64,000 bases of DNA from Comamonadaceae bacterium (GTDB lineage Bacteria > Pseudomonadota > Gammaproteobacteria > Burkholderiales > Burkholderiaceae_C), in contig CANJWZ010000002.1 of assembly GCA_947478725.1 (NCBI GenBank), forward strand, positions 62,001 to 126,000. Direction: 5' to 3'. The translations under genes and the position numbers were made by a program. Numbering within the stretch: the first letter of the stretch is position 1; the number at the start of each line of letters is the position of its first letter. The notes under the pieces were generated by a model, which saw only the letters and a list, made by a program, of their open reading frames with translations, did no database searches and was not told the DNA's origin. This document shows positions 3,077 to 63,892 of this stretch, one piece after another.

Positions 3077-3119
3077 ACTTTTTATAGTAGCTTGCGCCCA
3101 TATTCATTGGACTCCAGCC
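3077..3119 (+). repeat. Dispersed GCTACT/TAGCTGCTTGC element, copy A
   Basis: Contains TTTTTATAGTAGCTTGCGCCCATATTCATTGG in pieces that match the family consensus (TATAG..GCTTGCGCC, then CATATTCATTGG, then a GG-CT end). It lies between the REP-like palindrome and the broken hydrolase gene. The 5' GCTACT part is degenerate. Confidence 0.65.
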
Positions 3120-3129
3120 GTGTTCATTC

Positions 3130-4216: not shown

Positions 4217-4288
4217 AATTACTATTATTTTAATAGCTGCCTGAGCATGTCTATATTGGTCTAGAGGCCTAAAATACTCAAAAAATTG
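4217..4288 (+). repeat. Dispersed element, copy B (near-full length)
   Basis: Begins ATTACTATTATTTTAATAGC, then TGCCTGAGCATGTC, TATATTGGTCTAGAGGCC and TAAAATACTC. This is one of the best full-length copies, running from the GCTACT-like 5' part through the TTGGTCTAGAGGCC part to an AAAA tail. It begins 13 bases after the vapC stop. Confidence 0.8.
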
Positions 4289-4423: not shown

Positions 4424-5368
4424 ATGCATTTAACGCAATCCATGATCCCCAAAAGCTCAGAACGCAACTTTGCCCGACGCATCGACCTGACCTCGCTTCA
4501 GCTCTTTGTAGCGGTGTGCGAGTTGGGCAGCATTGGCAAGGCTGCCGAGCGGGAATTTATTGCCGCGTCAGCGGTCAGCAAGCGGCTGAGCGACCTGGAG
4601 GCGACTTTGGGTACGGCCCTGCTCTATCGCCACACGCGTGGTGTGGGCCTCACACCCGCAGGCGAAAGTCTGTTGCACCATGCGCGCTCAGTACTGTTCA
4701 GCCTGGAGAAAATGCAGGGCGAACTGAGCGAGTACGCCGACGGTGTGCGCGGCCATGTGCGTGTGCACGCCAACATTTCGGCGATAGTCCAGTTTTTGCC
4801 GGAAGACCTGGGCGCGTTCATCCGCACCCACCCAGAAGTCAAAATTGACCTGGAAGAGCACCTGAGCACCGAAATCGTCAGGGCCGTGGCGGAGGGTGCG
4901 GCGGATCTGGGCATTTGCAACGTCGCTGACGGCGTGGGCGAGCTGCAAAGTTTGCCTTACCGTACCGACAAGCTGGTACTGATTGTGCCCAGAGGCCATG
5001 CGTTATGTGGGCAAGCTGCTATTTATTTTGAATCATCGCTAGACTACGACCAGGTTGGCCTGCACACCAACAGCTCGATTTATATCGCTATGCAGCAGGC
5101 GGCAGCCGCCGTTGGGCGTACGATCAAACTGCGTATTCACGTGACCAGCCTGGACGCCGTTTGCCGGATGATTCACAACGGCCTGGGTGTGGGCGTGATG
5201 CCGCAACGTGCCTTTGAGCTGATGAATGGCGTGGGCGAGCTGGCGTCGATTGAACTGCTCGACGACTGGGCATTGAGGCACATCCATCTGGTGGCGCGGG
5301 ACTTTTCAACCCTGCCGGTCACGGCGCGACTTCTGGTTGAGCACCTGACCGCAGACCAAGACACTTAA
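4424..5368 (+). CDS. LysR-family transcriptional regulator
   Basis: About 314 residues. An N-terminal winged helix-turn-helix (LTSLQLFVAVCELGSIGKAA, then IAASAVSKRLSDLEATLG and LLYRHTRGVGLTPAGE) is followed by a periplasmic-binding-protein-like effector domain. It reads into leuC, 25 bases downstream on the same strand, so it could regulate leucine genes, but it could equally have another target. The start is uncertain: ATG at 4424 or 4442 are both possible and neither has a clear ribosome-binding site. A long overlapping frame in the same region is a shadow. Residues about 188-206 (QAAIYFESSL) are encoded by a copy of the dispersed element. Confidence 0.85.
   Translation: MHLTQSMIPKSSERNFARRIDLTSLQLFVAVCELGSIGKAAEREFIAASAVSKRLSDLEATLGTALLYRHTRGVGLTPAGESLLHHARSVLFSLEKMQGELSEYADGVRGHVRVHANISAIVQFLPEDLGAFIRTHPEVKIDLEEHLSTEIVRAVAEGAADLGICNVADGVGELQSLPYRTDKLVLIVPRGHALCGQAAIYFESSLDYDQVGLHTNSSIYIAMQQAAAAVGRTIKLRIHVTSLDAVCRMIHNGLGVGVMPQRAFELMNGVGELASIELLDDWALRHIHLVARDFSTLPVTARLLVEHLTADQDT
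4987..5042 (-). repeat. Dispersed element, copy Q, inside the LysR gene
   Basis: On the minus strand it reads ATAGCAGCTTGCCCACATAA, then CGCATGGCCTCTGGGC, a degenerate match to the consensus ATAGCTGCTTGCGCCCATAT...ATGG.CT..GG. The gene stays open and the element gives QAAIYFESSL, in the same phase as the hemD copy (QAAVY). Confidence 0.45.
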
Positions 5369-7504: not shown

Positions 7505-7568
7505 AAAACAATAGCACTCTAACCCAATATATTCATGGGTTAGCAGCTATAAAAATAATAGTAAAGAT
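7505..7568 (-). repeat. Dispersed element, copy C, in the leuD-leuB gap
   Basis: On the minus strand it reads TTACTATTATTTTTATAGCT, then GCTAACCCATGAATATATTG and GGTTAGAGTGCTATTG. The CCCA...TGGG-type stem is preserved as TAACCCA/TGGGTTA. It ends about 10 bases before the leuB ATG and so occupies the place of the leuB ribosome-binding region. Confidence 0.75.
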
Positions 7569-12847: not shown

Positions 12848-13636
12848 TTGAGGCTGGCTCTAGGCATCAGTTACAACGGCAATGCTTATGAGGGCTGGCA
12901 AAGCCAGCTCTCGGGCAACACCGTGCAGGACAAACTGGAAGGCGCGCTGGCCAAATTTGCCGCTCAGCCCATCCGCGTCAATTGCGCTGGACGCACCGAC
13001 GCGGGCGTGCACGGCCTGATGCAAGTCGTGCATTTTGATACCCCACTTGAACGCGAAACAGGCTCCTGGGTGCGCGGCACCAACGCGTTTTTACCCACAG
13101 ACATCGCCGTGCAGTGGGCGCGTGTGATGCCTGATGAATTTCACTCACGCGGCAGTGCGATTGCCCGGCGCTATGCGTACGTGGTGCTCGAATCGCCGGT
13201 GCGGCCAAGCGTAGAGGCGGGCCGCGTTGGTTGGGTTTATCGCACGCTGGACGGTGAAAAAATGCGGCAGGCAGCAAGCTATTTGCTGGGCGAACACGAC
13301 TTCAGTTCATTTCGAGCGGCGCAGTGCCAGGCCAAATCGCCCATCAAAAATATCCAAAAAATCGACATCACACAGCGGCAAGGCTCGCCGTACTGGCGCT
13401 TTGAATTTCAAGCCAACGCCTTTTTACACCACATGATTCGCAACATCATGGGCTGCCTGGTGGCGGTAGGCCAGGGCTTTCGCGAGCCTGACTGGATGGC
13501 CGACGTGATGGCGGCCAAAAGGCGTGACGCCGCAGCGCCCACCTTTTCGCCAGATGGTCTGTACTTTTTGGGACCAGTTTATGAAGAAAGGTACAGCCTG
13601 CCCACCAGATCCGCGTCTTATGATTGGCTGCCATGA
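12848..13636 (+). CDS. truA: tRNA pseudouridine(38-40) synthase
   Basis: 262 residues. The catalytic aspartate is Asp51 in CAGRTDAGVHG; RRYAYVV, HDFSSFRAAQCQAKSP and FLHHMIRNIMGCLV are further TruA signatures. The start must be the TTG at 12848: the same frame contains the fimV stop 27 bases upstream and no ATG or GTG in between. The sequence TTTGAGGCTGG occurs twice, at the TTG and 17 bases before it, suggesting a small duplication at the gene start. The stop overlaps trpF by ATGA. Confidence 0.96.
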   Translation: MRLALGISYNGNAYEGWQSQLSGNTVQDKLEGALAKFAAQPIRVNCAGRTDAGVHGLMQVVHFDTPLERETGSWVRGTNAFLPTDIAVQWARVMPDEFHSRGSAIARRYAYVVLESPVRPSVEAGRVGWVYRTLDGEKMRQAASYLLGEHDFSSFRAAQCQAKSPIKNIQKIDITQRQGSPYWRFEFQANAFLHHMIRNIMGCLVAVGQGFREPDWMADVMAAKRRDAAAPTFSPDGLYFLGPVYEERYSLPTRSASYDWLP

Positions 13637-14358
13637 ATCAAGCCAGAACCCGAATCAAAATCTGCGGCCTGACCCGCGAACAGGACGTTGATGCAGCTGT
13701 AGCCGCAGGGGTCGACGCGATTGGCTTTGTGCTGTTTGCGCCTAGCGCCCGTTACGTCAGCCCGGCACGAGCGGCTGAGCTGGCAGCCAGGCTGCCGCCG
13801 TTCGTGACGCCCGTGCTGCTTTTCGTCAACGCTTCCGCTACTGAAATAATAGCTACTTGCCAAGGTATTTCGGGGGCTTTAGTGCAATTTCATGGTGATG
13901 AAGCGCCCGATGAGTGCCTGCACATAGCCCAAAAGAACGCCCGGCCGTTCATCAAAGCGGCGCGTATCCCGCTGAATCAAGAAACCCCAAACGCACGACT
14001 CAATTTCGATCTCGTAAAATACGCCGACGACTTCAAATCAGCCCAAGCCATTCTTTTAGACGCACATGTCGAAGGTTTTGGCGGCGGCGGAAAAACATTC
14101 AATTGGTCACTCCTTCCTCCAAGCGTCAATGCTCACCTCGTTTTGTCTGGTGGACTCACACCTGCAAACGTGGGCGACGGCATATTGCAAGTCCGGCCAC
14201 GCGGTAAAACGCTGGCTGTCGATGTGAGCTCGGGCGTCGAGATTTCCAAGGGAATCAAAAGCCCCGAGCTGATCAGTCAATTTGTTGCAGCCGTTCGCGC
14301 TGCAGACCACCAACTTGCAGAGAAAGCCTTCAATCATGTACGAGTACCAACAACCTGA
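13633..14358 (+). CDS. trpF: Phosphoribosylanthranilate isomerase
   Basis: 241 residues, (beta/alpha)8 barrel enzyme of tryptophan synthesis. Motifs: [16 protein letters not shown] at the N-terminus with the catalytic Cys, [38 protein letters not shown] and VDVSSGVE with the phosphate-binding region. The ATG overlaps the truA stop (ATGA). The 3' end overlaps trpB by 23 bases, so the three genes are coupled. Codons for residues about 69-84 ([16 protein letters not shown]) are an in-frame copy of the dispersed element, with AT-rich codons unlike the flanks. Confidence 0.96.
13837..13882 (+). repeat. Dispersed element, copy D, in frame within trpF
   Basis: GCTACTGAAATAATAGCTAC, then TTGCCAAGGTATTTCGGGGG and CTTTAG align throughout with the family consensus (GCTACTATTTTAATAGCTGC, TTGCGC..ATATT.ATTGGG, CTAGAG). 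It is read sense as [13 protein letters not shown], the same phase as copy J in fabD. Confidence 0.8.
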
Positions 14359-15640
14359 CCTCAAAGGTCACTTCGGCATTTATGGCGGCAGTTTTGTATC
14401 AGAAACGCTGACCCACGCCCTGACCGAGCTCAAAGAAGCCTACGCAAAGTACCAACATGAGCCTGAATTTTTAAAAGAATTCCACGACGAACTGGCGCAC
14501 TTTGTCGGTCGCCCATCGCCGATTTACCATGCCGCCCGCACCAGCCGCGAACAGGGTGGCGCGCAAATTTACTTCAAGCGCGAAGACCTGAACCACACCG
14601 GCGCGCACAAAATCAACAACACCATTGGCCAGGCCATGCTGGCCAAGCGCATGGGCAAACCCCGCGTGATTGCCGAAACCGGCGCGGGCCAGCACGGCGT
14701 GGCCACCGCCACCATTTGCGCACGCTATGGGCTCGAATGCGTGGTCTACATGGGCAGTGAAGACGTCAAGCGCCAAAGCCCCAATGTGTACCGCATGAAG
14801 CTGCTGGGCGCGACGGTCGTGCCGGTAGAGTCGGGCAGCAAAACGTTGAAGGACGCGCTGAACGAAGCCATGCGCGACTGGGTCGCCAACGTTGACAACA
14901 CCTTCTACATCATCGGCACTGTGGCCGGGCCGCACCCCTACCCGATGATGGTACGAGACTTTCAAAGCGTGATTGGCAACGAATGCATTGCGCAGATGCC
15001 CGACATGCTCGCGTCACTCTCCAATCACGTGACAGGCGGCAAACAACCCGATGCGGTGATCGCCTGCGTCGGCGGTGGCAGCAACGCGATGGGTATTTTT
15101 CACCCTTACATTGCCTACGAAAATACCCGCCTGATTGGCGTTGAGGCCGCTGGCGAAGGCATGGACAGCGGCAAACATTCCGCCTCATTGCAGCGCGGCC
15201 TGCCCGGCGTGCTGCACGGCAACCGCACCTACGTGCTTCAAGACGACGACGGCCAGGTCACTGAAACCCACAGCATCAGCGCCGGCCTGGACTACCCCGG
15301 CGTTGGCCCCGAACATGCATTTTTGAAAGACATTGGCCGCGCTGAATACGTCGGTATCACCGACAAGGAAGCACTCGACGCCTTTCATTACACCTGCCGC
15401 ACCGAAGGCATCATCCCGGCGCTTGAATCTGCACACGCCGTGGCCTATGCCATGAAACTGGCTAAAACCATGCGCGCAGACCAGTCGATTCTTGTCAACA
15501 TGTCGGGCCGGGGCGACAAAGACATCGGCACCGTGGCTGACTTGAGCAACGCCGATTTCTATTGCCGCCCAAGCTGCAAAGGCCAGTCGGTCAAAGGCGG
15601 CGAGCAGGCGCAAAGCCAAGTCATTGAGTTTGCGAAATGA
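14336..15640 (+). CDS. trpB: Tryptophan synthase beta chain
   Basis: 434 residues. PLP enzyme joining indole and serine. Motifs: [14 protein letters not shown], the PLP lysine in [15 protein letters not shown], the gating/substrate region [11 protein letters not shown] and the phosphate-binding [12 protein letters not shown]. The C-terminus is about 30 residues longer than E. coli TrpB ([12 protein letters not shown]...). ATG at 14336 lies inside the end of trpF, and the stop overlaps the trpA start as ATGA. Channels indole from TrpA in an alpha2beta2 complex. Confidence 0.97.
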
Positions 15641-16504: not shown

Positions 16505-16570
16505 CGCTACGATTTATAGAGCTGCTTTCCCACGTATTTGCTAGGCTGTAGGCCTAAAAGGCGCCTGAAG
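16505..16570 (+). repeat. Dispersed element, copy E, after trpA
   Basis: GCTACGATTTATAGAGCTGC, then TTTCCCACGTATTTGCTAGG and CTGTAGGCCTAAAAGGCGCC. The GGCTGTAGGCC part matches the element's second half well. It lies between convergent trpA and the small gene at 16594. Confidence 0.75.
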
Positions 16571-17964: not shown

Positions 17965-18027
17965 AATGCTACTTTTTTTATAGCTTTTCGCACCCCTATT
18001 CATTGGCCTAGAAGACGAAAAAAACCT
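17965..18027 (+). repeat. Dispersed element, copy F, between accD and the LON-domain gene
   Basis: ATGCTACTTTTTTTATAGCT, then TTTCGCACCCCTATTCATTG and GCCTAGAAGACGAAAAAAAC. It begins 10 bases after the accD stop. Confidence 0.8.
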
Positions 18028-25147: not shown

Positions 25148-25210
25148 TAGCAAAAATCGCCTGCAGCCCAATGTTTAATTGGGCTAGAAGCTACTTAATC
25201 AATAGCATCC
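25148..25210 (-). repeat. Dispersed element, copy G, between serC and the permease stop
   Basis: On the minus strand it begins directly after the permease TGA: GGATGCTATTGATTAAGTAG, then CTTCTAGCCCAATTAAACAT and TGGGCTGCAGGCGATTTTTG. The second half forms a perfect 8-bp stem AGCCCAAT/ATTGGGCT with a 5-base loop. It could act as a bidirectional terminator between convergent genes. Confidence 0.8.
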
Positions 25211-29136: not shown

Positions 29137-29215
29137 GGGTGCTATTGAATCAGGAGCTACTTACTCATATATCTAATGGTCTGCAGCCCTATTTTATGGT
29201 TAATATGGCCTGAAA
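29137..29215 (+). repeat. Dispersed element, copy H, upstream of nagZ
   Basis: GTGCTATTGAATCAGGAGCT, then ACTTACTCATATATCTAATG, GTCTGCAGCCCTATTTTATG and a GGCCTGAAAAG end. It is the clearest copy of the CAGGAGCTACT variant, which is also seen in the rseB, sppA and rne copies. It fills most of the acpS-nagZ gap. Confidence 0.8.
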
Positions 29216-38260: not shown

Positions 38261-39283
38261 CTATTTTTTACGCTCAAGGCCATTGGCAAACTGCTTGAGG
38301 GTGACCATCGGCACCTCGCCCATGGCCGTCAACCAGTAACTGCCGATGTGCCGCGTCAGGGTATGGGTTGCCCCCATGGACGTGCCAGACTCTTTGGTGT
38401 GACGCTGGCGGTCGTAAGACTCCACAAACAGCGACACCGATGCCAGCCCATCCGAAAACACCCAGTGCATCGAGTCTTCTGCAAGGGATGCAGCGCCTGC
38501 CGGTGCAGACCGCTTGTAGCAGCTGATGGGTTTGAATCCAGCCACCGATGAAGGCAAATACCAGCCTTGTGCGCTGGCTGTTGTCTTGACAATCGTGGGG
38601 TGTTCCGCGCGCAAGCCCTCCACCTTACCCATCATCTGAAGCAGTTTTTCCATCTTCACAGGCGCGTCCATCAGGAGCTCCGAAAACGCAGCCTGCTCAA
38701 GCACCCGGCCATCGACGTCGAGTGTCTGCAATTTCACCACCAGACCTTTTTTTTGCTCTGTCCAGACACGGTAGCCAAAGCGCATGGCATCTTTGGACAC
38801 CAGAACAGCAACGTCGGCATCCACCCCCGCAACGCGCTCAGTGCCTTCGAGTTTGAGTTTATAAAAGTCAGAAATGCGGTGATCGGAAGACTGAACAATC
38901 TCGGGAAACGAGTTCAAGGCTTCACGTTTTTCATGGCGTACCAGCTTTTGGTCGGGCAGAAAAGTCACGACCTGCTCGTTGTGCCGAAAAGTTGAACGCG
39001 GCGCGCCCGTCAGGGTTTCGACTCGCTCGGTTTGCTGCCCCGCCTCACAGACGTGCCAGATTTTTGCGCTTTGCAGCTGACCGCCCGACGAAACCACATA
39101 AGTTCCGATATAGGCGCGGTTTTTGGAAGCCTCATGCATGCGGCGCAGCCACTCATTGAGGTCTTTGGCGTCCTGAACCGTAGCGACGGACTGGCTTGAG
39201 CCAAGAGCTTGGGATGCTACTAATTCAGGAGCTACTAGAACAGAAAATACAAGGGATAAAGAAATAAATGACCGGTAAAACAT
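38261..39283 (-). CDS. rseB: Sigma-E regulatory protein RseB/MucB
   Basis: 340 residues with a signal peptide. The N-terminal LolA-like domain (LNEWLRRMHEASKNRAYIGT, IWHVCEAGQQTERVETLTGAPR in part, VVTFLPDQKLVRHEKRE) and the C-terminal domain (PSSVAGFKPISCYKRSAP, HWVFSDGLASVSLFVE) match MucB/RseB, which binds RseA in the periplasm and shields it from proteolysis. The signal-peptide end (APELVAS) is encoded by an antisense copy of the dispersed element, so the cleavage region has been rebuilt. Confidence 0.93.
   Translation of the reverse strand: MFYRSFISLSLVFSVLVAPELVASQALGSSQSVATVQDAKDLNEWLRRMHEASKNRAYIGTYVVSSGGQLQSAKIWHVCEAGQQTERVETLTGAPRSTFRHNEQVVTFLPDQKLVRHEKREALNSFPEIVQSSDHRISDFYKLKLEGTERVAGVDADVAVLVSKDAMRFGYRVWTEQKKGLVVKLQTLDVDGRVLEQAAFSELLMDAPVKMEKLLQMMGKVEGLRAEHPTIVKTTASAQGWYLPSSVAGFKPISCYKRSAPAGAASLAEDSMHWVFSDGLASVSLFVESYDRQRHTKESGTSMGATHTLTRHIGSYWLTAMGEVPMVTLKQFANGLERKK
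39212..39240 (+). repeat. Dispersed element, copy I (partial), in the rseB signal-peptide region
   Basis: GGATGCTACTAATTCAGGAG, then CTACTAG on the plus strand, antisense to rseB. Read through rseB it gives VAPELVAS. It matches the 5' part of copies H and K. Confidence 0.65.
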
Positions 39284-43524: not shown

Positions 43525-44492
43525 ACCAGCAATTCTTTCATTTGGGCCATAGAGGCGGGGTCAAACAAAGGGGCTCCTGTCAAGTCAGCATCGATTCTCT
43601 TGACCAGACCCGCCAGTACCTTGCCCGGCCCACATTCAACAACATGGCTGACACCACGTGCTTTGATGGCCTGGACACATTCCACCCAGCGCACAGCACC
43701 AAAAGCCTGGCGGTACAAGGCATCGCGAATCCCCGCTGCATCGGTTTGCACCGCCACGTCAATATTGTTGATCAGCGGAATTTGCAGGGCGGCAAAGGAG
43801 GTTTCCGCCAGTTTTTCTTGAAGCTTTTCGGCAGCGGGCTTCATCAGGCTGGAGTGAAATGGCGCGGAGACCTGAAGCAGCAAGGCGCGTTTGGCGCCTT
43901 CGGCTTTGAGCAGTTCGCAGGCCTTGTCGACAGCGGCCTTGCTGCCTGCAATCACGGTTTGCAGCGGATCGTTGAAATTAACAGCCTCCACCACTTCGCC
44001 ATTTTGCAAACCAAACTCTGCGGTAGCCCCAGTAATACCTGCGCAAACAGCTATTATTTTCGAAGCATCCAAACCCAAAATGGCCGCCATCGCACCTGCG
44101 CCTACGGGCACGGCGTCTTGCATGGCCTGGGCCCTGAAGCGCACCAGCGGGGCGGCTTGCGCCAATGTCAATGCGCCGCTGGCCACCAAAGCTGCGTATT
44201 CGCCAAGCGAATGCCCGGCAACGCACACCGGCGCCACACCTGCCTCGGCCATCCACACCCGATAAGCCGCAACACCCGCCACCAACATCACGGGCTGGGT
44301 ATTGGTCGTCAGCGCCAGATCTTCTTTGGGGCCCTCTTTAATCAATCGGCTCACATCCTGCCCCAGCGCATCAGATGCCTCTTGCAATGTGTGGGCGACC
44401 GCAGGGTGATCGCCCCAGGCATCCAACATACCGACCGATTGAGAGCCTTGACCCGGAAATACAAAAGCAAATGGTTTCAACAAAATCTCCAA
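43521..44492 (-). CDS. fabD: Malonyl-CoA:ACP transacylase
   Basis: 323 residues. FPGQGSQSVGML at the N-terminus, nucleophile Ser in VAGHSLGEYAALVASG, and a second-site His in VSAPFHSSLMKPA. Loads malonyl groups on ACP. Residues about 142-156 (SKIIAVCAGITGAT) are encoded by a sense copy of the dispersed element, replacing a helix segment just after the conserved AAILGLD. The next gene upstream ends directly before the fabD start. Confidence 0.96.
   Translation of the reverse strand: MEILLKPFAFVFPGQGSQSVGMLDAWGDHPAVAHTLQEASDALGQDVSRLIKEGPKEDLALTTNTQPVMLVAGVAAYRVWMAEAGVAPVCVAGHSLGEYAALVASGALTLAQAAPLVRFRAQAMQDAVPVGAGAMAAILGLDASKIIAVCAGITGATAEFGLQNGEVVEAVNFNDPLQTVIAGSKAAVDKACELLKAEGAKRALLLQVSAPFHSSLMKPAAEKLQEKLAETSFAALQIPLINNIDVAVQTDAAGIRDALYRQAFGAVRWVECVQAIKARGVSHVVECGPGKVLAGLVKRIDADLTGAPLFDPASMAQMKELLV
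44023..44066 (-). repeat. Dispersed element, copy J, in frame within fabD
   Basis: On the minus strand GCTTCGAAAATAATAGCTGT, then TTGCGCAGGTATTACTGGGG and CTAC. Aligns with copy D in trpF at most positions and uses the same reading phase (AAA ATA ATA GCT GTT TGC). Confidence 0.8.
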
Positions 44493-48949: not shown

Positions 48950-49489
48950 TTACTTTTTCTTTAACTGGGCCAGCGCAGCAAAAGGATTCGGTTTGCCAGG
49001 GCCATCGTCAGGCACATCAATGACGCCCGCGCTAAATTCTGGCAACACCGGGCATTCGTCATGCATGGGCACCAGCGGCAGCGCCATGAGCAGTTCGTCC
49101 TCCAGCAGCGCGAACAGGTCAAACTGCGGCGCCATGACCAGCAAATCCTCCTGCGACGCATCATCTTGCGCCATGGCAATCTCTTCAGTGGCCACGAATC
49201 GATACCACTGATTCACCTGCAAGGGCGTCTGGGCAACGGCCATACAACGCTGGCAGGTCAGCGGCACAGACGCCTCGGCTTGCAGATGCAGCCACAGGTC
49301 TGTTTGGCCGGTCGCGCCTGCGCGAAGCTCGGCCAATGCCTGCCAGTTGACGGTCGAGTCTGGCTCCAGCCCAACGGATTCAAGGGCGAGCCGCTCTAAA
49401 TCTTGTAGCAACGTAGTTTCAACCAGCGGCACACCGCTGGTTGCCAGGGTTTGCAGGTTGAGGCTGTGCAGGGCTTGCTGTCGGGTCAT
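48950..49489 (-). CDS. yceD: YceD/DUF177 family protein
   Basis: 179 residues. The family's CxxC appears as VPLTCQRCMAVAQTPLQV near residues 75-92, with an acidic C-terminal half (DECPVLPEFSAGVIDVPDDG) ending PNPFAALAQLKKK, the usual YceD C-terminus. Plays a role in 23S rRNA/large-subunit accumulation in homologues. First gene of the rpmF-plsX-fab run; divergent from maf with 25 bases between the two starts. Confidence 0.92.
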   Translation of the reverse strand: MTRQQALHSLNLQTLATSGVPLVETTLLQDLERLALESVGLEPDSTVNWQALAELRAGATGQTDLWLHLQAEASVPLTCQRCMAVAQTPLQVNQWYRFVATEEIAMAQDDASQEDLLVMAPQFDLFALLEDELLMALPLVPMHDECPVLPEFSAGVIDVPDDGPGKPNPFAALAQLKKK

Positions 49490-50925: not shown

Positions 50926-52008
50926 TCAGCGAATGGCGGGCAAGGCCCTGACGGCCTTGATCGCGCCTTCGCCCACTGCCGCACCAAACTTTTTGGCCAG
51001 GCGCTCGGCCACGTTGTCACGGCGGGTGTAGTCAACGATGTCCTCTTGTTTGACCAGTTCGCGTGCGACGTATTCCAGCGTACCCAGCTTGTCGGCCAGG
51101 CCCAATTCAATGGCTTGCTGACCGGTCCAGAACAGGCCGCTGAACATTTCTGGTGTTTCTTTCAGGCGTGCGCCGCGCCCGGCTTTGACGACGCTGATGA
51201 ACTGCTGGTGAATCTGGTTGAGCATGGTCAACGCGAACTCACGCTGCTTGTCGGTTTGTTTGCTGAAAGGATCTAAAAAGCCCTTGTTTTCGCCGGCTGT
51301 CAAGAGTCGGCGCTCAACACCCAGCTTGTCCATCAGCCCGGTAAAACCAAAACCATCCATCAGCACGCCAATGCTGCCAACAATGCTGGCTTTGTCGACA
51401 AAAATCTGGTCTGCCGCCACGGCAATGTAATAAGCCGCCGAAGCACAGGTTTCTTCCACCACGGCGTAGACCGGCTTTTTGTGTTTGGCTTTCAGGCGGC
51501 GAATCTCGTCGTTCATCATGCCGGCCTGCACCGGGCTGCCGCCGGGGGAGTTGATCAGCAGCACGACCGCTTTGGCGCCATCGTCTTCAAAAGCGGCCTT
51601 CAAAGCGGCATTGATGAACTCGGCGCTGGCATCGGATCCGGCGGCGATTTCGCCTTTGATCTCAACGACTGCCGTATGCGGCGCGCTGGCGCTGTTCGCG
51701 GGCGTGCCCCGATGCAAGGCCATCCAGGCCAGCACCACAAAAAACAGCAGCCAGGACATGCGCACAAAGGCTTTCCAGCGGCGCGTGGCCTTTTGCTCGT
51801 TCAGGGACGCAAACGCCAGCTTTTCAAGGGTATTGCGCTCCCAGCCGGGCGTGTCTGTCGGGTCCGTTTTTGATTTTTTGGATGCTACTATTTCAGGAGC
51901 TGCTGGTTCATGAATTGATTGGTCTGGAGGTATATTTGATCCACTTTTTGAGGCATTTTCAGCTCCAAAAGATGGGTTTTCAGGGTCTGGGCGGTTGTTT
52001 TCGGTCAT
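50926..52008 (-). CDS. sppA: Signal peptide peptidase SppA, short form (S49)
   Basis: 360 residues. An extended cytoplasmic N-terminus (about 75 residues), one membrane segment (MSWLLFFVVLAWMALH), then the S49 protease: NSPGGSPVQAGMM, the nucleophile Ser in EETCASAAYYIAVAAD, SIVGSIGVL and the likely Lys in AGENKGFLDPF. It degrades cleaved signal peptides in the membrane. Residues about 17-43 of the N-terminal tail, including APEIVAS, are encoded by a copy of the dispersed element. Follows the Rieske gene with 19 bases between. Confidence 0.93.
   Translation of the reverse strand: MTENNRPDPENPSFGAENASKSGSNIPPDQSIHEPAAPEIVASKKSKTDPTDTPGWERNTLEKLAFASLNEQKATRRWKAFVRMSWLLFFVVLAWMALHRGTPANSASAPHTAVVEIKGEIAAGSDASAEFINAALKAAFEDDGAKAVVLLINSPGGSPVQAGMMNDEIRRLKAKHKKPVYAVVEETCASAAYYIAVAADQIFVDKASIVGSIGVLMDGFGFTGLMDKLGVERRLLTAGENKGFLDPFSKQTDKQREFALTMLNQIHQQFISVVKAGRGARLKETPEMFSGLFWTGQQAIELGLADKLGTLEYVARELVKQEDIVDYTRRDNVAERLAKKFGAAVGEGAIKAVRALPAIR
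51881..51960 (+). repeat. Dispersed element, copy K, in the sppA 5' coding end
   Basis: GGATGCTACTATTTCAGGAG, then CTGCTGGTTCATGAATTGAT, TGGTCTGGAGGTATATTTGA and TCCACTTTTTGAGGC, antisense to sppA. About full length. The sppA frame passes through it without a stop. Confidence 0.75.
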
Positions 52009-54133: not shown

Positions 54134-54713
54134 TGGCGTTGTGTTCGTTAAGTTGTTGATTTGCTTGGAGTTTAGTCCACGCCCATCAAACCAGCCTGAA
54201 AAGGTCCATGAGAAGCTTGATCACGCAGCACCAGAAGGTCGATGCAAACACCTGTGACTCCGCCAAAGCGGGTTGACACCGGAAAACGAGTCGACGTTTT
54301 GCGAAACAAACTACGGAATACCCAAGCGGGTAGCTCTTGCATTCAGGGGCTGCCTGCGGATCTTGGTGAGATAAAAGCCTTTTTTGACCGATAGCACTTC
54401 AATGACAACGCTGTACAACCTGATCACCTTCTGCCTGCGGTGCTTTTTAGCCCCGTTTTTAGGCACGAATCAGCCTGCGGCCCTTGTTTCACGTGCGCAA
54501 GCAGCTACTAATACAGTAGCAAAGTTTGTTTCGTTCATTCGGACTCCTGCTCACCCCATCCACGCGCCTACGCTTCAAGCTCCTGCCTGACTGATTTTTC
54601 AGTCGTCCAGTTGGCTACAAAGCTCTCCGGCAATTCCCCACGTTCGCACAGCGTCTGCTTTGGCATCGTTGGCTCATTTTGAGCTGTTGAAATGATGATG
54701 AAAGAGTACGCAC
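54134..54713 (+). promoter_or_regulatory. rluC-rne divergent gap and long rne leader
   Basis: 580 bases. In E. coli the rne mRNA has a long 5' leader that mediates autoregulation by RNase E, and this gap is long enough for one. A TTGACA lies at about 54273 without a clear -10 partner. Copy L of the dispersed element occupies about 54440-54523, inside an open frame 54402-54590 (MTTLYNLITF...) that I do not consider a gene. I could not define the promoter. Confidence 0.5.
54440..54523 (-). repeat. Dispersed element, copy L, in the rne leader
   Basis: On the minus strand TTTGCTACTGTATTAGTAGC, TGCTTGCGCACGTGAAACAA, GGGCCGCAGGCTGATTCGTG, CCTAAAAACGGGGC. The core GCTACT...GTAGCTGCTTGCGCAC is well kept. 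As part of the rne leader it might form structure in the mRNA. Confidence 0.75.
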
Positions 54714-57700
54714 ATGAAACGCATGCTGATCAATGCCACCCAGGCAGAAGAGCGCCGTTTGGCGATTGTTGACGGACAAAAACTCCTTGACTACGAAATT
54801 GAAATTGAAGGGCGCGAGCAGCGCAAAGGAAACATCTACAAAGCGGTGGTGACCCGGGTTGAGCCATCGCTGGAAGCCTGTTTTGTGGATTACGGCGAAG
54901 ACCGCCACGGCTTTTTGCCGTTCAAGGAAATCTCGCGCAACTACTTCGCACCAGGCGTGTCGGTCAGCCAGGCGCGCATCAATGATGTGATCCGCGAGGG
55001 CCAGGAACTGATGGTTCAGGTCGAAAAAGAAGAGCGCGGCAACAAGGGCGCAGCCCTGACCACCTTTGTGTCACTGGCCGGCCGCTATGTGGTGCTGATG
55101 CCCAACAACCCGCGCGGTGGTGGCGTGAGCCGCCGTATCGAGGGCGAAGACCGGGCCGAGCTGAAAGAAAACATGGACCAGCTGGAGTACCCGCAGGGCT
55201 CCAGCATCATTGCCCGTACCGCCGGCATTGGCCGCAGCGCGCCAGAACTGCAGTGGGACCTGAACTACCTGATCAAGCTCTGGACCGCCATTGAAGGCGC
55301 GGGCAAGGGCGGCAAGGGCGCTTTCCTGATTTATCAGGAATCCAGCCTGGTCATCCGTGCGATTCGCGATTACTTCAACAGCGACATCGGCGACATCTTG
55401 TTTGACACCGACGACGTGTACGAGCAGGCCAAACAGTTCATGGCGCATGTGATGCCCGAGCATGAGCACCGCGTCAAGCGCTACCGCGACGACGCACCGC
55501 TGTTCAGCCGTTTCCAGATCGAGCACCAGATCGAGTCGGCCTATGCCCGCACCGTGCAGTTGCCGTCTGGCGGCGCCATCGTGATTGACCAGACCGAGGC
55601 GCTGGTCAGCGTCGACGTCAACTCGGCGCGCGCCATCAAGGGCGGCGACATTGAGGAAACCGCCACCCGCACCAACCTGGAAGCCGCTGACGAAGTGGCC
55701 CGCCAGATGCGTCTGCGTGACCTGGGCGGCCTGGTGGTGATTGACTTTATTGACATGGAAGAGTCACGCAACCGCCGCGATGTTGAAAACCGCCTGCGCG
55801 ATGCATTGCGCCAAGACCGCGCCAGAGTCCAGTTTGGCACCATCAGCAAGTTTGGCCTGATGGAGATGAGCCGCCAGCGCCTGCGTCCTACGCTGAGCGA
55901 AGGCGCGTCCATCCCCTGCCCGCGTTGCGGTGGCTCTGGCCATATCCGCGACACCGAAAGCTCGGCCTTGCAGATCTTGCGGATCATTCAGGAAGAGTCC
56001 CTCAAAGACAGCACCGCATCGGTGTTATGCCAGGTGCCGGTGGATGTCGCGTCGTTCTTGCTGAATGAAAAACGCTCAGAAATCAGCAAAATCGAAATGA
56101 AGCAGCGCATCAACGTGCTGCTGGTGCCAAACAAAACGCTGGAAACACCGAACTACCGGCTGGAACGCCTGAAGCACGACGACCCGCGCCTGGACAACAT
56201 CGAAGCCAGCTACAAGATGGCCGAAGAAATGGAAGACCCGACGCTGGTCACGCGTCGCAGCCAGGAAAAGCACAACAAGCAAGAGCCTGTGATCAAGGGC
56301 GTGTTGCCAGATGCCCACGAACCCCTGGCCCCTGCCGCCCCTGTGAAGGCTGAAGCCAAACCTGACGTGGCCGCCGCCAAGGCAGCACCCGCTGCAACAC
56401 CTGCACAAGCTGCAGCGCCAGCGGAAAAGGGATTTTTTGGCTGGCTCAAAGCTTTGTTTGGCGGCGCTGATGTGCCCGCCAAACCGATCGCAGCACCGGC
56501 CGGTGATCTGAAGAAAGATGACCGTGAAGGCGATGCTCGCCGTGACGCTGCCCGGGATGGCCGCAGCGAACGCGGCGGCCGTGATGGCCGCCGTGGCGGC
56601 CGCGCCAGAGGCGAGCGCAGTGATCGTTCGGAAGGTCGCACAGAGGGCCGAAGCAACGAGCGCCGTGAACGTGGTCCTGATCAACGAGGCGCTGAGCCGC
56701 GCGGCGAACAGCGCAATGATCAACGAGGCGAACAACGTGCTGAAGGCCAGGAGACGCGTGAGCCGCGCCCACCGCGCGAGCCGCGTGAACCGCGCGAAGG
56801 CGGTCGCCAGGAGCGTCCACGCCGTGAACGCGGTGAGCGAAGCAACGAGCCGCGCCCATCTGTTGATGCCACCGAGCAAGACATCGCACTGGCCAACAAG
56901 GCCGCCATGGCTGCAGCCATGGGTGGCGGGGCAGCAGACGCGGGTCAGGAAGCGCCGCGCCGTGAGCGTGGCGATCGCGGTCGCCGCAATGACCGCCGTG
57001 GTGAGCCACGCGCAGAGTCACGCACCGACTCACAAGATGCGCCGCGTGAAGATCGTCAACTGTTCAGTGACGCGCCTGCTGAGCAAGCCGTCAGCATGGA
57101 CATCCATGCTCCTGCTGAAGGCGGCACAACCGGCGATCAGGCCAATCCACAACGTGCGCCGCGTGAGCCACGCGAGCGCCGCAGCCGTGACCGTTACGGC
57201 CGCGATCGCCGCGAGCGCGCTGAAGGTTCTGAGCGCAGTGAAACCGGCGCTGAGGCCGCTGCCTTGACTGAAAACCAGGCATCAAATGAGGCTGCAGACC
57301 AGCAAAGGCTTGCGCCAGTAGCTCCTGAATTTATAGCGTCTACAGCGCCAGTTGGCTCGGCTGTTGTCACCGCTGATGTCGCTCTGCCTGCAGTGCCAGC
57401 ACACACCCCCCAAAGCACGCCCGCGCCCTCGCCTTCGCCAGCCCTTGCATCGGCTGCCAGCGGCCTGCCCAAGGTTCAGGCTTACGACTTGCCCTTGCAA
57501 GACCTGGTTCAGGTCGCACAGGGCTCCGGTCTTCAGTGGATCAACTCGGATGCGGGCAAGATAGCAGAGGCACAGGCCGCCATTGCTGCTGAGGCCAAAC
57601 CGGCACATGTGCCTCGCGTACGAGCACCCGCCGTGGTGCCCAATGAGGGTCCGCTGGTGCTGGTTGAAACACGCCGCGACTTGCGTGAGGTGGAACTGCC

Positions 57701-59178: not shown

Positions 59179-60288
59179 TTAGCGGCCAGCCGCCGCTGTC
59201 GCCAGTGCTGCCATGGTGTCATCCAGGCGCGGCAGCTCGCTGGTTTTCAGCTGGCTCTGAACTTGCTGAAGCAGTTGCACCGCGGCCTGGGTTTTGCGCG
59301 ATGCCGGATCAAAATACTTGCCCAGCCAGGTGCCGGCGTTGGCCAGGTCTGCGCGCGCTGCGTCGGTCTGCCGGGCCAGCAAACCCAAACGCGCGTTCAG
59401 CAGGCGCAGCTTGAGGTTTTCACGCAAGAAAAACGACTGCTCTGGGGATATCAGGGCCGCCTCGGGCTGCTCAATGCGGCTGACGCGGAGCAGCTTGCGG
59501 CTTTCTTCTTGCAGGGCATTGAGAGCACTGCGTGCCGCAGTTTTGACATATTGCATATCAAACCAGCCCCACCATGTCAGGCTGCCTTGACCCTCGGGTG
59601 GTTTGACAGGCACTTGCGCAGACCGGGCTGCTGCAGTCCCAGACGCGGCATTGGGAACGCCGTTGGCCACCGGCAGTTCATCGGCCATCCGGCTCAGCTC
59701 GTCAATCTTGATCATCAGCGCGGGGACATCGGTCAGACTGGCGGCCTTGATACGGTCGGCATCTTTGGCAATGGCGCGCATCAAAGGGCTCAAGCGCGGT
59801 TGCGCGGCACGTTGCAAACGCTGCTGGGCCGAAGCCAGCGCAGCCAGCAGCGGCACCGGGCTACCTGTTAACTGGGCTTGCTGCTGGGCCAGCCGCAAGG
59901 CTGACTCAATATCGACCACCAGATTTTCATCGCGCGAGCGTGACAAACTTTGCATCAGCTCTTCCAGCTGCGTGCGCTGCAAACTCACTTCACTGATACG
60001 GTTTTCCTGCAAGGTCAGGCGGGCGGCCAGGTCGCGCGTGCTGTCTTGTGCCGCCTTGGCCAAGGTGCGGGCTTCAATCGCTTGCGCGCCCGCATCGAGG
60101 CTGCGCCTGGCCAGCTCTTCCTGAATGTTGGCCAACTTTTGCCACAGCAAACCGCTGACCAGCAAGGCTGCTGCGCCCAAGGCCAGTACCGCATAAGCCA
60201 GCTTTTTAGGCACTGTAAACCGGGTCGCTTGCGTTGCGGGTTCGGCCTGCGTCAGTGTTGCTGATTTTTCTGTGGGGTGATCACTCAT
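59179..60288 (-). CDS. hemX: HemX-family membrane protein
   Basis: 369 residues. A short cytoplasmic N-terminus, one membrane segment (residues about 30-48: LAYAVLALGAAALLVSGLL), a coiled-coil part (IQEELARRSLDAGAQAIEAR, LTLQENRISEVSLQR) and a C-terminal domain with WWGWFDMQYVKTAARSALNA and FFLRENLKLRLLNARLGLLA, as in HemX. Once thought to be a methyltransferase fusion, this form has no such domain. Overlaps the hemD stop by ATGA. Confidence 0.92.
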   Translation of the reverse strand: MSDHPTEKSATLTQAEPATQATRFTVPKKLAYAVLALGAAALLVSGLLWQKLANIQEELARRSLDAGAQAIEARTLAKAAQDSTRDLAARLTLQENRISEVSLQRTQLEELMQSLSRSRDENLVVDIESALRLAQQQAQLTGSPVPLLAALASAQQRLQRAAQPRLSPLMRAIAKDADRIKAASLTDVPALMIKIDELSRMADELPVANGVPNAASGTAAARSAQVPVKPPEGQGSLTWWGWFDMQYVKTAARSALNALQEESRKLLRVSRIEQPEAALISPEQSFFLRENLKLRLLNARLGLLARQTDAARADLANAGTWLGKYFDPASRKTQAAVQLLQQVQSQLKTSELPRLDDTMAALATAAAGR

Positions 60289-61163
60289 GGTTGCGTCGAT
60301 TCTATCGAGGCAAGCGCCTGCACAATATCAGGCAAAGCCGGGCGTGACAGCTGCACAACACCCCAGCCTGCCTGAAGGGCAGCCGCCTGAATGCGGGGAT
60401 GGGTCGCGATGGCCCGTGCGTTTTGCCAATTGACGTCCGTCAGGCCAGCTTGCTGCGTCAGGTTGGCCACTGCTTCAGAACTGCTGAACAGCCAGACTGA
60501 GCGGTCCTGGCTGGCGGCCGTGGCCACTTCCATCTGCACGCGGGTCAGTTGCGGCGCACGGCGCTCATAGCTGCTGACCAAATCGACCGTGCTGCCGGCA
60601 GCGCGCCACTGCTGCGCCAGCCAGTCGCGGCCCGTGCCGCCCCCCCCTTCAGACGCTTCGCCCTTGCCGCGCACGATCAATACCCGGGCACCCTGCCAGT
60701 CGCGCTGGCCGACCACCTGCCACAGGCTTTCAGAATCAAACTGCGCTGCGTCTGGTGCGGGCGCGTCGATCTGGTTCGCGGGCACACCTGCGGCCCGCAA
60801 CGCAGCAGCTGTGCCGGGGCCAGGCGCCAGAAAACGCATATGGGAAGGAAGCTGTGGTGCTGTTTTATAAACAGCTGCTTGCGCGCCTGTTGATGGATCA
60901 AAAGCCGTTTTTGAAACTTGAAAGGGGGCGAAAAAGTGCTCAACGGCGTTGCCACTGACAAACATGCAGGCCCTCAAGTCGTTCAGGGTGTTCCAGGCCT
61001 GCTGTAACGCGGCACGGTCTGCCGGGTGTGAGACCGCCGCAATCTCAATGAGCGGCAAGGCCTGCGCCTCGAACCCGCTTTGCTGCAGCCGGGAAACCCA
61101 AACCTGTGCATCCTGCGCAGGCCGCGTGACGATGACTCTGCTCACGCGTCCCGACGTGGCCAT
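60285..61163 (-). CDS. hemD: Uroporphyrinogen-III synthase
   Basis: 292 residues. Closes hydroxymethylbilane into uroporphyrinogen III. Weakly conserved family; visible features are RVIVTRPAQDAQVWVSRLQQ, MFVSGNAVEHFF, FLAPGPGTAAALRAAGVPA and VWLFSSSEAVANL. Somewhat long compared with the usual ~250 residues; the extra part at about residues 83-103 (DPSTGAQAAVYKTAP) is encoded by an antisense copy of the dispersed element. It overlaps hemC by one base (TGATG). Confidence 0.93.
   Translation of the reverse strand: MATSGRVSRVIVTRPAQDAQVWVSRLQQSGFEAQALPLIEIAAVSHPADRAALQQAWNTLNDLRACMFVSGNAVEHFFAPFQVSKTAFDPSTGAQAAVYKTAPQLPSHMRFLAPGPGTAAALRAAGVPANQIDAPAPDAAQFDSESLWQVVGQRDWQGARVLIVRGKGEASEGGGGTGRDWLAQQWRAAGSTVDLVSSYERRAPQLTRVQMEVATAASQDRSVWLFSSSEAVANLTQQAGLTDVNWQNARAIATHPRIQAAALQAGWGVVQLSRPALPDIVQALASIESTQP
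60855..60915 (+). repeat. Dispersed element, copy N, within hemD
   Basis: GGTGCTGTTTTATAAACAGC, then TGCTTGCGCGCCTGTTGATG and GATCAAAAGCCGTTTTTGAA on the plus strand, antisense to hemD. The AGCTGCTTGCGC core is exact. It falls in a stretch where HemD appears longer than usual. Confidence 0.65.
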
Positions 61164-62164: not shown

Positions 62165-62287
62165 GTCTGTCGCCTCGTACCTATTTGTCATCATGTAGGG
62201 AAAGGCGATGCTAGCACGCAAGCCAAGCTCAAAAAGGCTCAAAACCGCCTTCCACGCTCTGAAAAACACCATTTTCAGACATAAAAA

Positions 62288-62347
62288 GTGTCTTCAGGCC
62301 AATAAATTTTTGGGTAATTTGCTCCTGAAAATATAGCATTTAGCATC
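62288..62347 (-). repeat. Dispersed element, copy O, upstream of hemC
   Basis: On the minus strand ATGCTATATTTTCAGGAGCA, then AATTACCCAAAAATTTATTG and GCCTGAAGACAC. It has the CAGGAGC variant core and the ...TTGGCCTG end. It lies about 125 bases upstream of the hemC start, in the promoter region. Confidence 0.7.
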
Positions 62348-63805: not shown

Positions 63806-63862
63806 ACACTACTGAGTCAATAGCGCCTCTTCCTTGTTTTTGTTGGGCTACAACCCTATTCG
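63805..63862 (+). repeat. Dispersed element, copy P, after slyX
   Basis: ACACTACTGAGTCAATAGCG, then CCTCTTCCTTGTTTTTGTTG and GGCTACAACCCTATTC. The first base overlaps the slyX stop. It separates slyX from a convergent gene at the window edge. Confidence 0.65.
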
Positions 63863-63892
63863 ATAAACTAAACCCGGCTGAGAATGCGGCTT

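Follow-up and report, generated by a model that had tools for sequence, protein, structure and literature searches.

A 57-bp motif dispersed through genes and spacers of a Comamonadaceae genome may be formed and held in place

A shared peptide and its dispersed motif

The window analysed here is a stretch of 64,000 nucleotides that covers bases 62001-126000 of contig 2 of a draft genome (3.99 Mb, 79 contigs) from a Comamonadaceae bacterium, whose closest named SppA records belong to Polaromonas and Comamonadaceae. Among its genes are those for RseB, SppA, and RNase E (Pfam domains MucB_RseB, Peptidase_S49, and RNase_E_G, respectively), in which an earlier note on this DNA had proposed that antisense copies of one element encode the same peptide. 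The 20-base sequence GATGCTACTAATTCAGGAGC is present exactly at 39213-39232 (+), with one mismatch at 51881-51900 (+), and with three mismatches at 57321-57340 (-), against a chance expectation of 0.00, and the opposite strand of these sites reads LVAPELVAS in RseB, AAPEIVASK in SppA, and VAPEFIAS in RNase E. The proposal was borne out: the three peptides are real and are encoded by antisense copies of a single dispersed motif, with strand and phase identical and the peptide nearly so. GATGCTACTAATTCAGGAGC represents only the core of this motif, which spans 57 columns, has TGCTATTaATTcAGGAGCTGCTcGCcCAtGTATTtATTGGgCTagAGGCctATTTGA as its consensus in this genome, and holds about 49 bits in a profile built from the genome's own copies.

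We searched for the motif in a sample composed of the window and 40 further stretches (758,579 bases), 822,579 bases in total or 21% of the genome; as these stretches were selected around motif matches, copy density was not derived from the sample. The profile search returned 156 matches of at least 12 bits, 154 of them distinct and 18 in the window (Table 1), while the top score was 9.7 bits in shuffled DNA and 7.0 bits in reversed DNA, with no match of at least 12 bits in the latter. Genome-wide, a 17-base core allowing up to two mismatches was found 158 times (7, 48, and 103 occurrences with zero, one, and two mismatches, respectively) versus 5 times for the reversed pattern. With 79 of these 158 core matches falling in the sample, the copy number extrapolates to about 308 per genome, and the ratio in the window (18 matches, 7 core matches) gives about 400 by our arithmetic. 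The 49 bits are distributed across all 57 columns without a sharp short core. An isolated short core was rejected as the unit, as 21 of 25 occurrences of ATTCAGGAGC in the sample and 51 of 73 of TCAGGAGC sit within detected copies, leaving 4 and 22 outside (reversed controls 0 and 9, respectively). Motif matches lie on both strands at a single spot at L057:10610-10665 and L059:3060-3125, and in the relative G012 an inverted motif pair at L354:1112-1322 is found about 180-390 bp before the Y1_Tnp domain match (1501-1824) of the second such gene there, a REPIN-like arrangement.

Within the sample, 84% of which was called as coding, 54 of the 156 matches were located inside called genes, 87 between them, and 15 across gene ends. 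Genes were called with a home-made codon-pair caller that trims starts and overlooked one ORF or more, and for 11 of the 87 supposedly intergenic copies a genic position is possible, through an uncalled ORF or a longer form of a called one. The missed ORF at 13624-14358 sits between called genes at 12848-13636 and 14336-15640. Full-length copies numbered 118, with 35 in genes, 69 called intergenic, and 14 over gene ends. Outside this genome, at least one core match with no more than one mismatch was found in 26 of 36 genus relatives and in none of 24 genomes of other families, using a search pattern in the genome's own dialect that would miss other dialects; recognisable copies are nearly absent from the relatives G003, G013, and G032.

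Table 1. Motif copies of at least 12 bits in the window, with the strand of each copy.
Location	Position	Strand	Bits	Remarks
sppA (gene on -)	51883..51939	+	42.5	full copy, antisense phase; encodes SNIPPDQSIHEPAAPEIVAS; other variants at the same place in G024 and G010
RseB, signal-peptide end (gene on -)	39215..39244	+	20.8	partial, columns 1-30; encodes LVAPELVAS
RNase E tail (gene on +)	57282..57337	-	41.5	full copy; encodes 19 residues; G024 dialect in the G024 ortholog
fabD (gene on -)	44020..44060	-	25.1	motif block; +9 nt versus orthologs
yceD (gene on -)	49356..49410	-	33.2	length differs by one residue in G013, by none in six other relatives
inside gene on +	4982..5028	-	17.7	partial
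called intergenic, inside uncalled ORF 13624-14358 (+)	13837..13889	+	27.6
called intergenic, within longer form of ORF 60285-61163 (-)	60864..60914	+	15.7	partial
intergenic, upstream of rne	54467..54521	-	33.6	species variants in relatives
intergenic	25154..25207	-	42.2
intergenic	29140..29194	+	45.4
intergenic	4222..4272	+	34.8
intergenic	7511..7561	-	30.1
intergenic	16506..16557	+	28.2
intergenic	17967..18018	+	26.5
intergenic	62286..62338	-	33.5
intergenic	63809..63863	+	24.9
intergenic	3090..3123	+	15.7	partial

Reading phase, species dialects, and column-wise constraint

The earlier note had taken the shared phase to be unlikely by chance while suggesting that stop codons might have filtered out the other phases. 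This suggestion was largely confirmed, as the consensus core closes the other two antisense phases by TGA or TAG (TCC-TGA or CTC-CTG-AAT-TNN-TAG), and the sharing of phase is thus mostly forced; what stands of the former claim is that the phase is over-used beyond the stop filter. Among the 35 full genic copies, 20 use the antisense phase of the three peptides, 8 sense-1, 3 antisense-1, 3 sense-2, 1 sense-0, and none antisense-2, while of the 69 full copies in called spacers 26, 37, 15, 24, 11, and 0, respectively, are free of stops in these phases. The stop filter alone predicts 23% for the used phase (observed 20/35, p = 1.4e-5), or 19% when the expectation is drawn from 60 unambiguous intergenic copies (p = 7e-7). 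The sampled genic copies therefore do not use the open phases at random, the pattern that the earlier note had set against its own claim. The antisense orientation as a whole is also over-used (23/35 versus 36% expected, p = 6e-4).

In SppA, the phase is inherited. Of the named records (80 in the set, three without an anchor), 32 of the 77 with an anchor carry the motif, all 32 in antisense, and all 30 that score on the own-genome profile share the phase. In the relative G024, with positions shifted to the start of its own profile, the same phase is found in 7 of 17 genic matches, a count that includes some palindromic sites scored on both strands, while no genic match uses a phase that is stop-free in 24 of the 30 intergenic copies, and three use a phase that is closed in all 30. 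We read the phase bias as inheritance of old sites combined with fit to the native protein. Under this reading, only stop-free phases whose peptide fits the native protein would persist at coding sites, and the recurrent APE(L/I/F)(V/I)A peptide would be a by-product of the single usable antisense phase.

To compare species, profiles were built for two of them, this genome and G024, and were rebuilt leave-one-out for each copy tested. The G024 consensus, GCTATTAAATTAATAGCTGCTTGCGCACGTCCGGCATGCGCAAAAGGCTTTTTT, has a palindromic core, and a contiguous stretch of 400 kb in that genome contains 59 distinct copies. Both species carry the motif at 14 genic sites. The own copy preferred the own profile at 13 of these and the G024 copy the G024 profile at 13, with both holding at 12; the exceptions were L056 6012, which prefers the G024 profile in both species, and the SppA copy of G024, which prefers the own profile, while YceD of G024 is a near tie (17.6 vs 17.8). 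The RseB copy of G024 is in the G024 dialect, at 32.0 bits leave-one-out on that profile. Of the G024 orthologs at 18 sites, those of FabD, L035 5440, and L041 7232 are motif-less, and that of L067 18012 falls just under the threshold at 11.9 bits. Such species dialects at shared sites indicate more than the mere decay of a single ancestral copy. The copy upstream of rne (54467-54521) has scoring counterparts in G024, G019, G010, G028, and G003, and G032 has a GC-rich hairpin-like sequence at this site.

Between close species, the sites are stable. In G015 (93.5% identity), 18 of 19 own copies score at least 12 bits, the RseB copy scoring 10.0, and the reverse comparison gave 18 of 18; in G012 (79.4% identity), the figures were 11 of 11 in both directions. 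These counts would miss sites that broke the alignment, and in the part covered no gain or loss was seen apart from the weak RseB copy of G015. Substitutions avoid high-information columns, with 16 of 188 bases differing there versus 55 of 161 in low-information columns between this genome and G012, and 33 of 325 versus 59 of 291 for G015. The 118 full copies have a mean pairwise identity of 59% and a maximum of 0.825, within the maxima of column-shuffled sets (0.784-0.855), with a slightly wider spread (sd 0.074 vs 0.061); in G024 the maximum is 0.860, slightly above the shuffled range of 78-85%. Some linkage exists between neighbouring columns, while linkage between distant columns is almost nil (mean z of 0.03 here and 0.20 in G024, with z above 3 in 1.9% and 2.7% of pairs, respectively). 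In these respects, the copies resemble independent draws from one profile. They also avoid one another within about 1 kb: 10 gaps below 1 kb were observed in the own stretches, which were picked around copies, versus 28.4 expected from placement in the same sequence class (0 of 1000 simulations were as low) and 23.3 from uniform placement, and in the 400 kb of G024, which were contiguous and not so picked, 1 was observed versus 7.9 expected from uniform placement.

Ortholog lengths and the formation of genic copies

Insertion of a full copy predicts that motif-less orthologs are 17-20 aa shorter. Across 67 motif-less ortholog pairs from 18 sites, defined by less than 8 bits on both profiles such that an unrecognised third dialect would count as absent, the length change ranged from -13 to +16 aa and was zero in 20 pairs, and no pair fell between -17 and -20, a range that provides no test for the 4 of 18 sites whose copies are below 16 aa. 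The test covers genic sites; only two intergenic own copies had both flanking genes in the retrieved stretches of relatives. Five pairs were shortened by 10-12 aa and one by 13 aa; shorter orthologs were found at L056 11871 (-6 to -11), in the C-terminal tail at L067 8252 (-12), and for SppA in two relatives (-10 and -12). At L070 8788, which carries a partial copy of 13.7 aa, the change of -13 aa in G013 fits an insertion, and two other relatives differ by +1 and +7. The GpsA site adjoins a length-variable stretch, and the protein is shorter by 6-8 aa in five relatives that lie outside the genus.

Elsewhere, length is constant. For LigA, aligned at 23 of the 29 loci from relatives, the change was zero in all 18 genus orthologs and in four of the five orthologs belonging to other families, the fifth being -1. 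It was likewise zero in 6 of 6 orthologs of an RlmI-type methyltransferase and, for genes named by Pfam, in 5 of 5 of PdxA, 4 of 4 of an AlkA-type glycosylase, and 4 of 5 of NIF3. In most relatives, the lengths of the window genes RseB, YceD, SppA, and RNase E differ little. The view in the earlier note, that the copies were inserted into places that tolerate it, was therefore not upheld, since orthologs are mostly of similar length, conserved enzymes (LigA, FabD, PdxA, NIF3) harbour several of the sites, and the phase is inherited, as seen in SppA. From these alignments, the copies seem to have formed in pre-existing sequence rather than to have been pasted in.

Native similarity to the motif was then ranked across the in-frame registers of each gene. 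The orthologous register was in the top 1% in 25 of 36 gap-free motif-less orthologs, including 5 of 5 for LigA, 6 of 9 for GpsA, and 3 of 4 for PdxA. Among the 11 outside the top 1%, RseB of two relatives and the G013 methyltransferase rank poorly, and the register of L056 6012 in G013 is at the median or below. A high register rank would not be expected for a foreign block placed on unrelated sequence, suggesting that native similarity came first or that decayed copies remain. LigA orthologs present graded forms that run from native codons to the motif core.

FabD differs from these genes. It is 3 aa longer than in all 8 relatives aligned first, and a larger alignment (25 of 29 relative loci) placed a contiguous block of +9 nt in this genome, G015, G012, and G006, the last by our reading of a shifted gap, and the native form in 16 other genus orthologs and 6 from other families; G024, G028, G029, and G032 have no FabD motif. 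Both TGCT and TTGCGC are common to the native FabD and motif sequences, and the block looks like one event anchored at these two shared strings.

Candidate explanations and known repeat systems

We tentatively favour the explanation, which we consider plausible though still somewhat short of probable, that the dispersed 57-bp motif sites, some 300-400 per genome by extrapolation in this Polaromonas-type species, are formed and held in place by a sequence-directed drive. Such a drive would most likely be biased uptake or recombination of motif-bearing DNA, as with DNA uptake sequences, and would keep moving sites toward the current consensus of the species. Against an uptake-like drive, the 49 bits of the motif far exceed the roughly 14.5 bits needed, by our arithmetic, to mark about 350 sites in 8 Mb of strands, and this excess is a hint of copying. 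Copying is central to a competing explanation, in which motif ssDNA or RNA overwrites similar chromosomal stretches at short anchors by templated short-patch conversion, with no sequence-reading uptake, an idea that derives from short-patch double illegitimate recombination. The contiguous FabD block with its shared anchor strings, together with the high information content, keeps this a viable rival, and partial copies and the concordance of dialects, which continuing conversion would yield, are consistent with it as well. We nonetheless consider it unlikely, as near-identical pairs are not in excess in this genome, distant columns are almost unlinked, the avoidance between neighbours is not predicted by conversion, and the LigA forms are graded rather than block-like.

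The column-wise constraint, the stability of the sites, and their avoidance of one another would also be explained if each were directly selected as a protein-binding or chromosome-organising site, comparable to Chi or KOPS, with dialects tracking changes in the protein. The lack of RNA covariation is in keeping with this; an RNA element had been rejected as a candidate, the window matching no Rfam family at gathering scores and the copies showing no clear Watson-Crick covariation (none beyond z 2.8 in 794 pairs from 69 own called-intergenic copies, or beyond z 3.4 in 636 pairs from 83 G024 copies). Direct selection is nevertheless improbable in our estimation, given that 49 bits is long for one protein, that sites lie on both strands within conserved enzymes, and that three relatives have hardly any recognisable copies. 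Decay of old insertions of a mobile palindromic element, such as Rickettsia palindromic elements, REPs, or MITEs, appears to us quite improbable. The high dispersed copy number of the motif, the palindromic core in G024, and the orthologs shortened by 10-13 aa would fit, as would a Y1_Tnp gene, of which there is at least one in each of 7 genomes searched, with two in G024 and two in G012. The motif is found near Y1_Tnp in this genome, where a copy follows the domain match of the single gene by about 120 bp, in G015, and at both G012 loci, and such neighbourhoods lend the mobile-element explanation weak support; the density of the sample would by itself lead one to expect about 0.6 copies in 3.3 kb. 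Y1_Tnp is, however, also present in the element-poor G013 and G032, and the consensus has neither GTAG nor CGTC; no motif-less pair indicates a full-length insertion, LigA, PdxA, and the methyltransferase are constant in length, and dialects at shared sites and the conserved columns that hold between species likewise argue against decay.

Among known systems, the motif most closely recalls the DUS of Neisseriaceae and USS of Pasteurellaceae, which in the cited passages occur in genes and spacers with suggested point changes in place, dialects, a stop in one frame of most dialects, and even spacing (PMC1939737, PMC3630211). The motif shares over-representation in genes and spacers, an apparent in-place origin, species dialects, spacing, and frame limits, but at 57 bp and 49 bits it lacks the sharp short core of mostly perfect copies, and it is block-like in FabD. 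As this core is missing, we do not file the motif as a member of DUS or USS, and the likeness is one of sequence alone. Among the matches listed in a literature search for DNA uptake sequences in Burkholderiales, we found only work on Neisseria mutants, and among those listed we recognised no report of the in-place behaviour of the motif. A potential novel motif, ATAGCT(N)22CAAAAG, was printed without explanation in 2017 for Polaromonas naphthalenivorans CJ2, with 125 copies of the motif pair, 101 intergenic, 18 in genes, and 6 overlapping (PMC5217627). It fits the G024 consensus, with few exact matches (10 in the 400 kb of G024 and 1 in the own sample), and very likely belongs to the same family as the motif described here; the cited part of that account gives no insertion test, dialects, or peptides (PMC5217627).

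Rickettsia palindromic elements similarly place a like peptide in unrelated proteins via an open phase, but are described in the cited passages as insertions of about 150 bp (PMC10969869, PMC3733652), whereas no full-length insertion was found here and the motif lacks their trait of an in-frame insertion that lengthens the protein. The REP/RAYT system resembles it as a short dispersed repeat with some copies in genes and Y1_Tnp in the genome (PMC3733652, in the part cited), and differs in that neither consensus strand carries a GTAG/CGTC tag, copies avoid each other, and the transposase is present in element-poor species. The BRE, a dispersed repeat in Polaromonas with some copies entirely within coding sequence, is about 90 bp in the cited description (PMC3110155), and it is by this description, not by sequence, that we set it apart. 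A different repeat of about 100 bp at L070:6866-6973, with dozens of matches among those listed (G019, G032, and G024, at about 80-91% identity), is possibly the published BRE. Dispersed repeats of about 75 bp at L056:8147-8225 and L067:16954-17031 have many matches in relatives, with both lists overlapping in G019, G024, and G029 and a tandem run in contig C4 of G019, and a further repeat contains CAAGTAAGCCGCCGACA, of which exact 12-mers occur 24 times on both strands of the 822-kb sample.

A bolder form of the sequence-directed drive, to which we give somewhat less credence than to the drive itself, is that the motif is a genome-wide drive motif outside the two known uptake-sequence families: a long site family of Polaromonas-type Burkholderiales that forms dialects, rewrites codons of conserved proteins in place, and stays apart from its own copies, acting either as a new uptake or mate-recognition signal or as a self-templating overwrite element. 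If true, this would extend the action of DNA signals on proteomes across whole genomes to one more, unrelated lineage, and would provide a clear case of a repeat that resides inside proteins without having been inserted. Environmental bacteria, with their many sequenced relatives, would then offer a way to test whether such signals spread by point-wise drive or by templated patches.
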